Shown here in pieces: positions 12,825 to 49,203 of a stretch of DNA of 64,000 bases (within the stretch, counting starts at the first letter, position 1; each line of letters starts with the position of its first letter). The notes below the pieces were generated by a model. That model did no database searches and was not told the DNA's origin. It saw only the letters and a program-made list of their open reading frames with translations. This stretch comes from Mycobacterium sp. Marseille-P9652 (lineage in GTDB: Bacteria > Actinomycetota > Actinomycetes > Mycobacteriales > Mycobacteriaceae). The position numbers and the translations under genes are program-made. The stretch lies in contig NZ_CACRUY010000018.1 in the NCBI RefSeq assembly GCF_902652685.1, positions 23,754 to 87,753 of the forward strand, given 5' to 3'.

Positions 12825-12840
12825 TCGGTTCACCTTCTTG

Positions 12841-12902
12841 CGCCGAACGTGCATTCCTTGTGCATTCTCGGCCGATTTCTCGCGCTGAGTGCACGCTCGG
12901 CG
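12841..12902. repeat. 62-bp palindromic element, copy A (left of DUF559 gene 1)
   Basis: Left arm CGCCGAACGTGCATTC and right arm GAGTGCACGCTCGGCG are inverted repeats matching at 14 of 16 positions, around a 30-bp interior ending TCTCGCGCT. It has the same length and arms as the elements at 13762 and 42009. It lies between echA19 and the DUF559 gene. Confidence 0.8.
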
Positions 12903-12936
12903 AAGGTGTCGGTACCCCACGCCACACTCGGCTGCC

Positions 12937-13797
12937 ATGGAACCGTTCATCGGGAGCGAGGCCGTCGCCTCCGGCATCGTCACGCCGTACGCCCTGCGCC
13001 GGCGTTTCGTCGCGATTCATCCCGACGTCTACATACCGGCCGGTGTGGATCTCACCGCTCGATCCCGCGCCAGCGCCGCCTGGTTGTGGTCGAGGCGGCG
13101 CGGCATCGTCGCAGGGCAGTCCGCGTCGGCGTTGCACGGCGCCAAGTGGGTCGACGATCGCACACCGGCGGTCCTGCTTTACGACTATCGCCGTCCGCCG
13201 GACAACATCATCACTTGGTCGGATCGCGTGACCGAGGACGAGGTGACCTCAATTGAAGGCATCCCCGTGACCACGCCGGCGCGAACCGCCTTCGACCTCG
13301 CTTGCCGAACGCCGACGTCGACCGCGGTTGCGGCCATCGACGCGCTGTTGCGCGCAACAAAATTTGACGTGGCCGAAGCTCTTTCGCTCACCCAGCGGCG
13401 CAAGGGACATCGCCACGTCAGGCGCGCGCGGCGCGCCCTGACCCTCGTCGACGCGGGCGCCCAATCGCCTCGAGAGACCTGGCTGCGGCTGCTGGTCATC
13501 GAGGCCGGTTATCCGCGACCACGGACACAGATCCCGGTCTACGGCGAATACGGGGAACTCGTTGCCGTCCTCGACATGGGCTGGGAGGACGTCAAAATTG
13601 CGCTCGAGTACGAGGGCGACCATCATCGGATTGATCGCCGGCAATTTCGGAGAGACATCGCCCGCTTCGAGGCGCTGCCAGACCTCGGCTGGATCACGAT
13701 TCGGGTGAGCGCCGGCGACACGCAGGGCGGCATCCTGGCGCGCCTGGCCACAACTTGGGCGCGCCGAACGTGCACTCAGCGTCGAAAAACCGCGTGA
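12937..13797 (+). CDS. DUF559/Vsr-like endonuclease with AbiEi-like N-terminal domain (paralogue 1)
   Basis: A 286-residue protein. Residues 5-70 resemble the winged-helix AbiEi-like antitoxin domain (GSEAVASG, WSRRRGIVAG). The C-terminal 190-270 matches DUF559, a very-short-patch-repair/PD-(D/E)XK nuclease relative: LDMGWEDVK with D213, EYEGDHH with E224, then D240 and GWITIRV. The ATG at 12937 aligns with the paralogue at 33331-34176. The last 12 codons, including the stop, lie inside the palindromic element 13762-13823. There is no methyltransferase or toxin partner beside it. Function unknown; a repeat-associated nuclease is my inference. Confidence 0.82.
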   Translation: MEPFIGSEAVASGIVTPYALRRRFVAIHPDVYIPAGVDLTARSRASAAWLWSRRRGIVAGQSASALHGAKWVDDRTPAVLLYDYRRPPDNIITWSDRVTEDEVTSIEGIPVTTPARTAFDLACRTPTSTAVAAIDALLRATKFDVAEALSLTQRRKGHRHVRRARRALTLVDAGAQSPRETWLRLLVIEAGYPRPRTQIPVYGEYGELVAVLDMGWEDVKIALEYEGDHHRIDRRQFRRDIARFEALPDLGWITIRVSAGDTQGGILARLATTWARRTCTQRRKTA

Positions 13798-13823
13798 ATC
13801 TCGCGCTCAGTACACGCTCGACG
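13762..13823. repeat. 62-bp palindromic element, copy B (3' end of DUF559 gene 1)
   Basis: Left arm CGCCGAACGTGCACTC and right arm CAGTACACGCTCGACG match as inverted repeats at 12 of 16 positions, with a 30-bp interior ending TCTCGCGCT. It lies in the same orientation as copy A, so the nuclease gene sits between direct copies. The gene's stop codon (13795-13797) falls inside it. Confidence 0.8.
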
Positions 13824-13835
13824 ACGCAGGGGCCT

Positions 13836-33244: not shown

Positions 33245-33299
33245 CCGCCGAGCGTTTCCCGCCGAGCGTTCCCGCCGAGCGTTTCCCGCCGAGTGTCAC
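33245..33299. repeat. Four tandem copies of a 13-14-bp CCGCCGAGCG unit
   Basis: Units begin at 33245, 33259, 33272 and 33286, reading CCGCCGAGCGTTTC, the same minus one T, the same again, and CCGCCGAGTGTCAC. The unit is a half-site of the palindromic repeat family seen next to both DUF559 genes. It lies between hsd4B and the second DUF559 gene. Confidence 0.8.
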
Positions 33300-33316
33300 G
33301 CCAGAGTGGCGTTGGA

Positions 33317-33348
33317 CGCCGAGCGCTGCGCTAGCGTGACGCTCGAAG
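33317..33348. repeat. Palindrome containing the 3' end of DUF559 gene 2
   Basis: Half-sites CGCCGAGCGCTG and GTGACGCTCGAAG flank a central CGCTAGCG palindrome. The stop codon of the nuclease gene (33331-33333) is inside it, the same arrangement as at DUF559 gene 1. Confidence 0.75.
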
Positions 33349-34176
33349 GGCGCGGGCCGCCGCCACCGCCCGAATGACGTCCATCGGCCGGTCCCCCGCC
33401 ACCACTCGGACGTTTATCCAGCCAAGTCTTTCGATCTTCTCCTGGCGTCGGAGGTCCCACCTGTACTGTCGCTGATCGGTCCGATGCTGTTCGCCGTCGT
33501 ATTCGGCGGCGACTTTCACGTCTTCCCACCCCATATCGAGATACGCGAAGACTTCACCGATCGCGTCGCAGACCGGAATCTGCGTCTGCGGCCGCGGAAA
33601 ACCAGCTCGAATCAGCAGCAGTCGAAGCCAAGTCTCTCTGGGCGATTGCGAACCGCCGTCGACCAATTCGAACGCCTCTCGAGCTCTGCGGATACCGCGT
33701 CTACCGCGGCATCGCTCCGCCAACCGCTCGACCTCTGCGACTTTCAGGTCCGTGGCTCCCAACAACGCATCGATGGCCGCCACGGCCTCGTCGAGCGAGT
33801 ACCAGCATGCCAAATCCAGCGCCGTCCGCGCCGGCGTCGTCACCGGTACGCCGTCAACGACGGTAACCTCGTCGTCGTCGATACGGCCACCGCGAACCAC
33901 TATCCCGGGCAGAGGGTTTCGGTTGGTGTGCAAGATTTCGAGAGGCCTCGACGGTTCAATCCACCTAGCGCCGTACACAGCCGAAGCGGTAAGTCCCGCC
34001 ACGATGCCACGGCGTCGTGACCATATCCACCCCGCTCGTGCCCGAACGATCGGACTCTGCTCGAGGCCGGGATTGGCATAGACGTCGCGGAACAGCCTGG
34101 TGTAGTGAGTGCGCAGCGCGCTCTTGAGAACCTCACCATTCGCGACAGCCTCGCTACCCACAAATGGCTCTGACAT
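33331..34176 (-). CDS. DUF559/Vsr-like endonuclease with AbiEi-like N-terminal domain (paralogue 2)
   Basis: A 281-residue paralogue of the gene at 12937-13797; shared blocks include WSRRRGIVAG, PVTTPARTA, QSPRETWLRLL and LDMGWEDVK. Predicted active-site residues are D214, E225 and D241 in the C-terminal nuclease domain; the N-terminal domain is AbiEi-like. It is inserted between hsd4B and ltp2, where I recall PPE63 in M. tuberculosis. Its last codons lie in a palindrome, and a 30-bp tandem repeat with the same core follows its 5' side. No methylase or toxin gene is nearby. Function unknown. Confidence 0.82.
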   Translation of the reverse strand: MSEPFVGSEAVANGEVLKSALRTHYTRLFRDVYANPGLEQSPIVRARAGWIWSRRRGIVAGLTASAVYGARWIEPSRPLEILHTNRNPLPGIVVRGGRIDDDEVTVVDGVPVTTPARTALDLACWYSLDEAVAAIDALLGATDLKVAEVERLAERCRGRRGIRRAREAFELVDGGSQSPRETWLRLLLIRAGFPRPQTQIPVCDAIGEVFAYLDMGWEDVKVAAEYDGEQHRTDQRQYRWDLRRQEKIERLGWINVRVVAGDRPMDVIRAVAAARALRASR

Positions 34177-34234
34177 GGCGGCAGCGTTCCACCTGGCGCC
34201 ACGGCCGTCACTTCACCACTCGCCAACGGTCCAC

Positions 34235-34299
34235 AGCGTCACGCCAGTGTGACGCTCGGCGCCGGCGGCCACGCTGGCGTGACGCTCGGCGCCGAGAGA
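34235..34299. repeat. Palindrome and 30-bp tandem repeat on the 5' side of DUF559 gene 2
   Basis: AGCGTCAC at 34235-34242 is inverted as GTGACGCT at 34249-34256. A 30-bp unit is repeated in tandem (34240-34269 and 34270-34299); both copies contain GTGACGCTCGGCGCC. The core CGCCGAGCGTCAC is the one found at the 3' side of the same gene. Confidence 0.75.
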
Positions 34300-42008: not shown

Positions 42009-42070
42009 CGCCGAGCGTGTAATCACTGCGTAAAATCGGCGAAAATCTCGCCGTGAGTGCACGTTCGGCG
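42009..42070. repeat. 62-bp palindromic element, solo copy
   Basis: Left arm CGCCGAGCGTGTAATC and right arm GAGTGCACGTTCGGCG match as inverted repeats at 13 of 16 positions; the 30-bp interior ends TCTCGCCGT. Length, arms and interior match the copies at 12841 and 13762, but no nuclease gene is attached. It lies between the convergent ddn and SDR genes. Confidence 0.8.
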
Positions 42071-49142: not shown

Positions 49143-49203
49143 CTCTCGCCCACTGTGCACTTCGCGACGCGACATGCCGTCGCGGAATGCACACTCGGCG
49201 GAG
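49143..49203. repeat. Imperfect 61-bp palindrome, variant of the 62-bp family
   Basis: Left arm core TGTGCACTTCGCGACG and right arm core CGTCGCGGAATGCACA are inverted around cgacatgc, and the right end is ACTCGGCG, as in the 62-bp elements. It lies between the convergent membrane-protein and fadA6 genes. Confidence 0.65.

Follow-up and report, generated by a model that had tools for sequence, protein, structure and literature searches.

The 983-bp unit described here, which consists of a nuclease gene enclosed by two palindromes in the genome of Mycobacterium sp. Marseille-P9652, is probably a member of a large family of palindrome-nuclease elements that resembles the REP/RAYT systems and spreads by means of its own nuclease. 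The family displays a fixed anatomy, palindromes that match in pairs, a coupling between the palindromes and the N-terminal part of the protein, a dispersal of solo palindromes, and gain or loss, or replacement, at gene junctions.

Organization of the unit and its protein

In the window, that is, the whole stretch of 64,000 nucleotides that was analysed, the unit extends from 12841 to 13823 and is made up of a palindrome of 62 bp, boxes that resemble a promoter, an intact nuclease ORF and a second palindrome that holds the stop codon. An earlier reading, made from the sequence only, had proposed this arrangement of two 62-bp palindromes around a nuclease gene, with the stop codon in the downstream copy, and it was confirmed at these positions. 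The features of the unit, with the evidence used for each, are the following:

12841..12902, no strand: 5' palindrome of the unit, 62 bp (sequence, repeat search, folding, own-genome sites)
12908..12928, plus strand: promoter-like stretch GTCGG ... CACACT, just 5' of the ATG (pattern counts in relatives)
12937..13797, plus strand: AbiEi-like and Vsr/DUF559-like nuclease ORF, 286 aa (domain scans, AlphaFold2, omega)
13762..13823, no strand: 3' palindrome of the unit, 62 bp, including the stop codon at 13795-13797 (sequence, repeat search)

The two palindromes align as direct repeats in two blocks, one of 17 nt at 94% (12840-12856 and 13761-13777) and another of 26 nt at 88% (12878-12903 and 13799-13824); they also align in inverted orientation (20 nt, 95%), because both are palindromes. 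Their 16-bp arms are imperfect, with 14/16 positions paired in the 5' copy and 12/16 in the 3' copy, as counted by eye. Single-strand folding gave a z of -3.98 for the 5' palindrome and of -1.13 for the 3' palindrome, for which 23 of 200 shuffles folded equally well; the 3' copy is therefore unremarkable alone, and the strong evidence comes from its relatives. Eleven codons of the ORF, together with its TGA stop codon, lie within the 3' palindrome. The pattern GTCGG-N10-20-[CT]A..CT is present within -40..0 of the start in 95/176 relatives and, for both upstream control windows, in 0/171; the GTCGG ... CACACT stretch is predicted to function as a promoter. The whole window had no match in Rfam at the gathering threshold.

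The window protein reaches the Pfam family AbiEi_1 barely at its cut-off (22.3 vs 22.2 bits), matches the Vsr-type REase family MTES_1575 with an E of 3.7e-4, which is under the family cut-off, and is identified as AbiEi in the PADLOC defence library (2.3e-12). The protein had previously been labelled as a DUF559/Vsr-like nuclease with an AbiEi-like N-terminal domain; the AbiEi-like label stands at the cut-off, whereas the DUF559 model of Pfam does not match the window protein itself and scores above its cut-off in three of six further relatives scanned (L319, L338 and L339, which are distant ones). For the window protein and these six relatives, Pfam gave AbiEi_1, MTES_1575 or DUF559 only, with no Y1/HUH domain, in agreement with the earlier statement that the nuclease family differs from that of the RAYTs. 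NCBIfam has no family for the window protein, and a sequence-profile search for relatives of solved structure returned none up to E 1. L043, the most distant paralogue in the same genome, has no AbiEi model match in Pfam or PADLOC, which counts against our preferred explanation.

The residues E180, D213, H230 and D240 are invariant across 50 sequences; the histidines differ in two distant paralogues, L042 and L043, the latter lacking the HH of the window protein. The invariant acidic and histidine residues are putatively catalytic. The AlphaFold2 model of the window protein is confident (mean pLDDT 92.1, pTM 0.87), and the relatives are under purifying selection, with a median omega of 0.15 over 542 non-independent pairs, which are those of 551 pairs with a dS below 2.

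Paralogues and palindrome families in the same genome

At an E of 0.01 the gene family has seven representatives in the assembly (5.70 Mb in 128 contigs), and the arms of the flanking inverted repeats differ from paralogue to paralogue. Five of the seven have palindromes on both sides (the window gene, L038, L041, L043 and L039), with inverted-repeat scores of 11 and 10 for the window gene, 10.5 and 10 for L041, and 21 and 19 for L043; the 5' copy of L039 was detected solely through a repeat similarity of 75%. L040 has a 3' palindrome followed by further copies and none at the 5' place, and in L042 the sole palindrome is a weak one at the 3' place (score 9.5). In L040, copies of a GCGCAGACTCAGCGCGGCCA unit occupy positions 2351-2622 (gene strand), 3' of the 3' palindrome of the C36 paralogue.

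Once overlapping alternatives and other rows with 3-4 mismatches had been removed, the palindrome of the window unit was found at 23 sites in its own genome, 20 of them exactly 62 bp long and 21 outside the unit; this number is a lower bound, as the scan covered the loci brought in by DNA and protein searches. A covariance model of the same palindrome had at least 69 hits in the genome, both strands counted. For the GAGCAGACGC family 13 distinct sites were counted, including the two that flank its nuclease gene, and the L039 family has four, two of them flanking. In each of these three families (23, 13 and 4 sites) a nuclease gene is flanked by its own type of palindrome, and solo copies lie elsewhere.

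A further nuclease unit enclosed by palindromes, belonging to a different family, is also present in the window at 33290-34286, as is a solo copy of the first palindrome:

33290..33345, no strand: 3' palindrome of the second unit, of the other family (GTCACGC type; inverted-repeat search)
33331..34170, minus strand: second nuclease paralogue, 53% identity, whose protein match runs past a TAG (C18:57084-57923; protein search)
34235..34286, no strand: 5' palindrome of the second unit, GTCACGC type as well (inverted-repeat search)
42009..42070, no strand: palindrome of the first unit's type, standing alone between two convergent genes (repeat search, neighbour genes)

A 54-bp inverted repeat with CGCCNA...TCGGCG ends at 49147-49200 of the window is possibly a solo of another family.

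Palindromes at fixed places in related loci

Inverted repeats were scored at the 5' and 3' places of the gene in two sets of relatives. The first set had 96 loci (7 from the same genome, 29 given as loci and 60 from among the matches listed), and a repeat with a score of at least 11 and a span of 45-80 bp was present at the 5' place in 53, at the 3' place in 45, at either in 72 and at both in 26. From 560 confirmed relatives, the best 80 named loci made up the second set, which shares some genomes with the first, and with slightly different span limits (40-90 bp) the palindrome was at either place in 67 loci and at both in 35. Among 4000 random flank windows the threshold was reached in 0.9% (5') and 0.7% (3').

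The association between palindrome and nuclease is no coincidence, because in the 80-locus set the palindromes are present at 57/80 of the 5' places and 45/80 of the 3' places, compared with 2/304 starts and 4/254 ends of the neighbouring genes in the relatives' loci, which were called by a custom codon-usage script; the excess at nuclease genes over other genes, on which the earlier proposal depended, is thus present. These control genes rule out chance or ordinary terminators. At a score of at least 9, the controls reach 14/304 and 13/254, vs 65/80 (5') and 52/80 (3') for the nuclease loci. Relatives with no palindrome of score 11 or higher at either place (24/96 and 13/80 in the two sets) count against the preferred explanation; L048 and L053, found palindrome-free in an early examination, were retained in the later counts.

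The centre of the 5' palindrome has a median position of -66.5 from the start codon, and the stop codon lies within the 3' palindrome in 99 of the 111 relatives having one (TGA in 57, TAA in 30 and TAG in 12). Double-hairpin-like flanking elements, formed by two GTGCGGC-GCCGCAC palindromes in tandem and resembling REP doublets, were observed in L081, L095, L099 and L107.

Different nucleases have different types of palindrome

The two palindromes of the same gene resemble each other much more than they resemble those of other genes, the mean score being 36.5 within and 13.8 between genes (0/20,000 permutations on 40 genes), and the gene's own partner palindrome ranked first for 24 of the 40. 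The similarity of the palindromes tracks the identity of the proteins (Mantel 0.56 with n=64 and 0.49 with n=59, 0/2000 permutations each), a correlation to which shared descent contributes. The sequence of the arms follows the first 80 residues of the protein more than its nuclease domain: across 112 loci, the variable part of the arm has a Spearman correlation of 0.57 with residues 1-80 and of 0.32 with residues 175-286, and the partial correlations are 0.51 and 0.14, respectively. The bootstrap difference between the N-terminal and the nuclease-domain correlations is 0.16-0.35, which excludes zero, and 0.11-0.36 in 52 non-redundant loci (<75% identity). Across 158 distinct 62-mers, preselected for being palindromic, many positions take three or four kinds of base pair, so the arms have changed and yet stayed complementary.

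AbiEi antitoxins bind inverted repeats of their own promoter. By analogy, the AbiEi-like part could bind the 5' palindrome as an operator, with the 3' palindrome as a terminator and the solos as operators or terminators of other genes, all in the absence of movement. The position of the 5' palindrome next to promoter-like boxes and the tracking of the N-terminal part by the arms agree with such an autoregulation, which we nevertheless consider unlikely, also in view of the solo copies and junctions described next; it leaves unexplained the match between the 3' and 5' copies.

Placement of solo copies and turnover at gene junctions

The ORFs beside the window unit are those that the earlier reading named echA19 and cyp142, and the junction is called by these names. 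At this first site we compared 20 relatives, 19 of which were selected for a short gap and one (G073) separately. Relatives whose echA19-cyp142 gap lacks the unit are present, so the empty site that the earlier reading called for exists. An inverted repeat with a score of at least 9 is found in 17 of the 20, with at least nine arm types as judged by eye. One of these 17 is G073 (L177, C19:102600-103500), where most of the nuclease gene is deleted and both palindromes are intact; another, L175, resembles an ordinary 38-bp hairpin. The form seen in G073 is what a non-autonomous derivative would be expected to look like. The remaining three relatives have no inverted repeat by score; by eye, L163 has half a palindrome and L176 a degenerate one. 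In G069 and G041 (L139 and L141), unit DNA aligns at the same junction and there is no strong match to the window-type protein; the gene, which aligns only in parts, may have decayed there.

The second site is the solo copy at 42009-42070 of the window, for which both flanks were fetched in 18 of 20 relatives. In five of the 18 the gap is 24 bp or less and the palindrome is absent; seven have an inverted repeat, two of them clearly of other families (G070 and G042); among the other six, G025 and G004 carry degraded-looking palindromes and four have 46-479 bp that are palindrome-free. At the third site, the solo at C44:9826, both flanks were present in 11 of the 12 relatives examined: G026 and G004 have palindromes of other families, G025 and G020 a window-type palindrome, G032 carries 1.2 kb, and G014, G027, G007, G019, G005 and G022 have none, save for a repeat of score 9.0 in G014 that is mostly gene-end sequence. 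The asymmetric core of this solo is shared with the 5' palindrome of the window unit, as are about 21 bp of flank at one end and 10 bp at the other, the GTCGG box frequent inside units among them; the sequence of the solo thus suggests that it derived from the 5' end of a unit.

In M. paraense (L213) the unit is inverted between the same two genes, echA19 and cyp142, with breakpoints in or at the palindromes. Its unit is 72% identical to that of the window and its flanks are 86% identical; therefore, an independent insertion in the opposite orientation is as possible as an inversion. Exact gain or loss of a unit between very close genomes was not found among the matches listed, and in a noisy comparison of the fetched relatives, in which 87 indels were counted, no clean insertion junction appeared among the indels listed. 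No direct repeats of 3-8 bp abut the 20 window-family solos inspected for target-site duplication, and abutting 2-bp repeats number 2 vs 1.06 expected. Insertion by a classical transposase is therefore unsupported, and a classical IS or MITE with target duplication was rejected on these 20 solos.

Ten of the 21 solos lie between convergent genes, nine between tandem genes and two between divergent ones, whereas the 102 gaps of 40-500 bp in the flanks of 80 loci divide into 9, 57 and 36, respectively; this baseline is rough, because gaps touching the nuclease gene were omitted and the gaps come from other genomes. The preference for convergent gaps (10/21 vs 9/102 in the relatives' flanks) would be expected if nuclease genes merely settled in gaps that already had terminator hairpins, and stem-loops in general are described as favouring convergent gaps in the part of the literature consulted (PMC1590033). 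We regard such hitch-hiking as very improbable, given that neighbouring genes rarely carry such palindromes, that palindromes resemble each other far more within a gene than across genes and are coupled to the N-terminal part, and that their distances to start and stop are fixed. Most solos adjoin a 3' end, which would also suit a role as terminators in the autoregulation considered above; that explanation accounts neither for the scarcity of solos between divergent genes (2/21) nor for the turnover of families at one gap.

Distribution in the genus and the order

The gene family was found at E 1e-10 in all 78 genus genomes sampled, with 1-17 copies per genome. The number of palindrome-model hits in these genomes, phylogeny being ignored, correlates with how high their best window-type nuclease scores (Spearman 0.70, and 0.69 without the genome of the window). 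Where the nuclease E falls below 1e-100 (21 genomes), the median is 40 palindrome hits (15 to at least 69), and in the 57 others it is 12 (0-56); at least one hit, both strands counted, is present in 71/78. Some palindrome-rich genomes without a strong window-type nuclease match (such as G069 with 56 hits, G010 with 52 and G025 with 51) count against the preferred explanation.

In a profile search of the order, 130 of 150 genomes and 39 of 46 genera, own genus included, proved to have the family. Eight genomes of other genera and families gave 77 profile matches, 30 of which were obtained as loci and all examined: with wider windows, 19/30 have a 5' inverted repeat, 19/30 a 3' one and 15/30 both, compared with 9.5% and 8.5% among 3000 random windows. 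In the 15 loci with both palindromes, the same-gene score is 29.5 vs 8.8 (0/20,000 permutations). The pairing of palindrome and nuclease thus recurs elsewhere in the order. Searches of plasmid and phage collections at E 1e-5 returned six plasmid records and one phage record, each under 60% identity; a phage or plasmid was therefore rejected as a close vehicle in those collections.

Such wide presence (78/78 and 130/150), the purifying selection and the resemblance of the window protein to AbiEi in the PADLOC defence library could also indicate a guardian, that is, a nuclease that processes hairpins of the genome or defends it, with its cognate palindromes kept as useful marks of self. We find this even less likely than autoregulation, since the 1-17 paralogues per genome, the type-specific palindromes and the site-by-site turnover look selfish, and the conserved unit has space for a single gene.

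Comparison with known systems

REP or REPIN sequences and their RAYT (TnpA-REP) enzymes form 'REPtrons', in which, according to the sections consulted, short palindromic repeats are dispersed between genes, mainly 3' of coding regions, RAYT genes are flanked by repeats, and different repeat types accompany different enzymes within one genome (PMC3116915, PMC3733652). The comparison with REP and RAYT made in the sequence-only reading is apt as an analogy. As in a REPtron, the nuclease gene is flanked by its own dispersed palindrome; unlike a RAYT, the enzyme is AbiEi-like and Vsr/DUF559-like and not an HUH/Y1 transposase. The mycobacterial family also differs in having 1-17 members per genome and a stop codon that usually lies in the repeat. 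The window-family palindrome has CGCCGA-like ends without a GTAG tag, a tag that by eye is absent from an alignment of 22 copies and from the flanks of 20 solos. The solos also lack the target-site duplication of insertion sequences with a DDE transposase. The AbiEi-like domain of type IV AbiE toxin-antitoxin systems is present in the window protein and absent from L043. The second gene of such systems encodes the AbiEii nucleotidyltransferase toxin; the ORFs next to the window unit are the two that the earlier reading named echA19 and cyp142.

Vsr-like (EDxHD) homing endonucleases such as I-Bth0305I reside in introns or split genes. They would be a precedent for a Vsr-fold nuclease as the spreading enzyme, homing by break repair; unlike theirs, the gene studied here lies between two full palindromes and encodes an AbiEi-like N-terminal part. 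VsrA of Caulobacter, a Vsr-like protein that has a DUF559 domain and is linked to cytosine methylation, probably belongs to the same nuclease superfamily as the window protein, and the word palindrome is absent from the paper on it (PMC12907096). A palindromic motif pair, CGAAA(N)19TTTCG, has been reported as widespread in Mycobacterium and unexplained; it may overlap with the GCGAAAA...TTTTCGC core of some copies here, and the nuclease link, the families and the unit are all absent from the consulted parts of its description (PMC5217627). In the open-licence literature, preprints outside, no paper linking DUF559/AbiEi-like genes with palindromic repeats was found among the top matches of larger lists, and none combined 'DUF559' with 'mycobacteri'.

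Proposed mechanism and significance

In the element that we favour, laid out as palindrome, promoter, nuclease gene and palindrome, the AbiEi-like N-terminal part would bind the cognate arms and the C-terminal Vsr-like domain would cut them or the adjoining DNA. Repair of the cut with another copy as template would carry palindromes, and sometimes the whole unit, to new places, a spread comparable to that of REPs presumed for RAYTs or to that of its own gene by a homing endonuclease. If a solo palindrome were broken and then repaired from a palindrome-gene-palindrome locus, the whole unit would be installed there, and the solos would be either non-autonomous offspring or scars of recombination between two flanking copies. 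Although each of its steps is conjectural, this scheme fits the inverted units, the solos and the lack of duplications. An element that sits at the 3' ends of genes and brings its own stop codon would do little harm and may act as a terminator.

We judge evenly balanced the broader proposal that these units are a new, order-wide class of actinobacterial selfish elements whose Vsr-fold nuclease, guided by an AbiEi-like domain, homes to and multiplies its own palindrome, following a code of one protein to one palindrome, and has given many genes their end hairpins. Nuclease and palindrome would then have diversified together into many specificities.

If our explanation is correct, the type of partnership represented by REP and RAYT would have arisen at least twice, with unrelated enzymes, and the spread and persistence of such repeats could be tested in a second, independent system. 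It would also account for the intergenic palindromic repeats of mycobacteria and for their many AbiEi/DUF559-like paralogues, and it would provide a natural family of palindrome-reading proteins with a readable specificity code.
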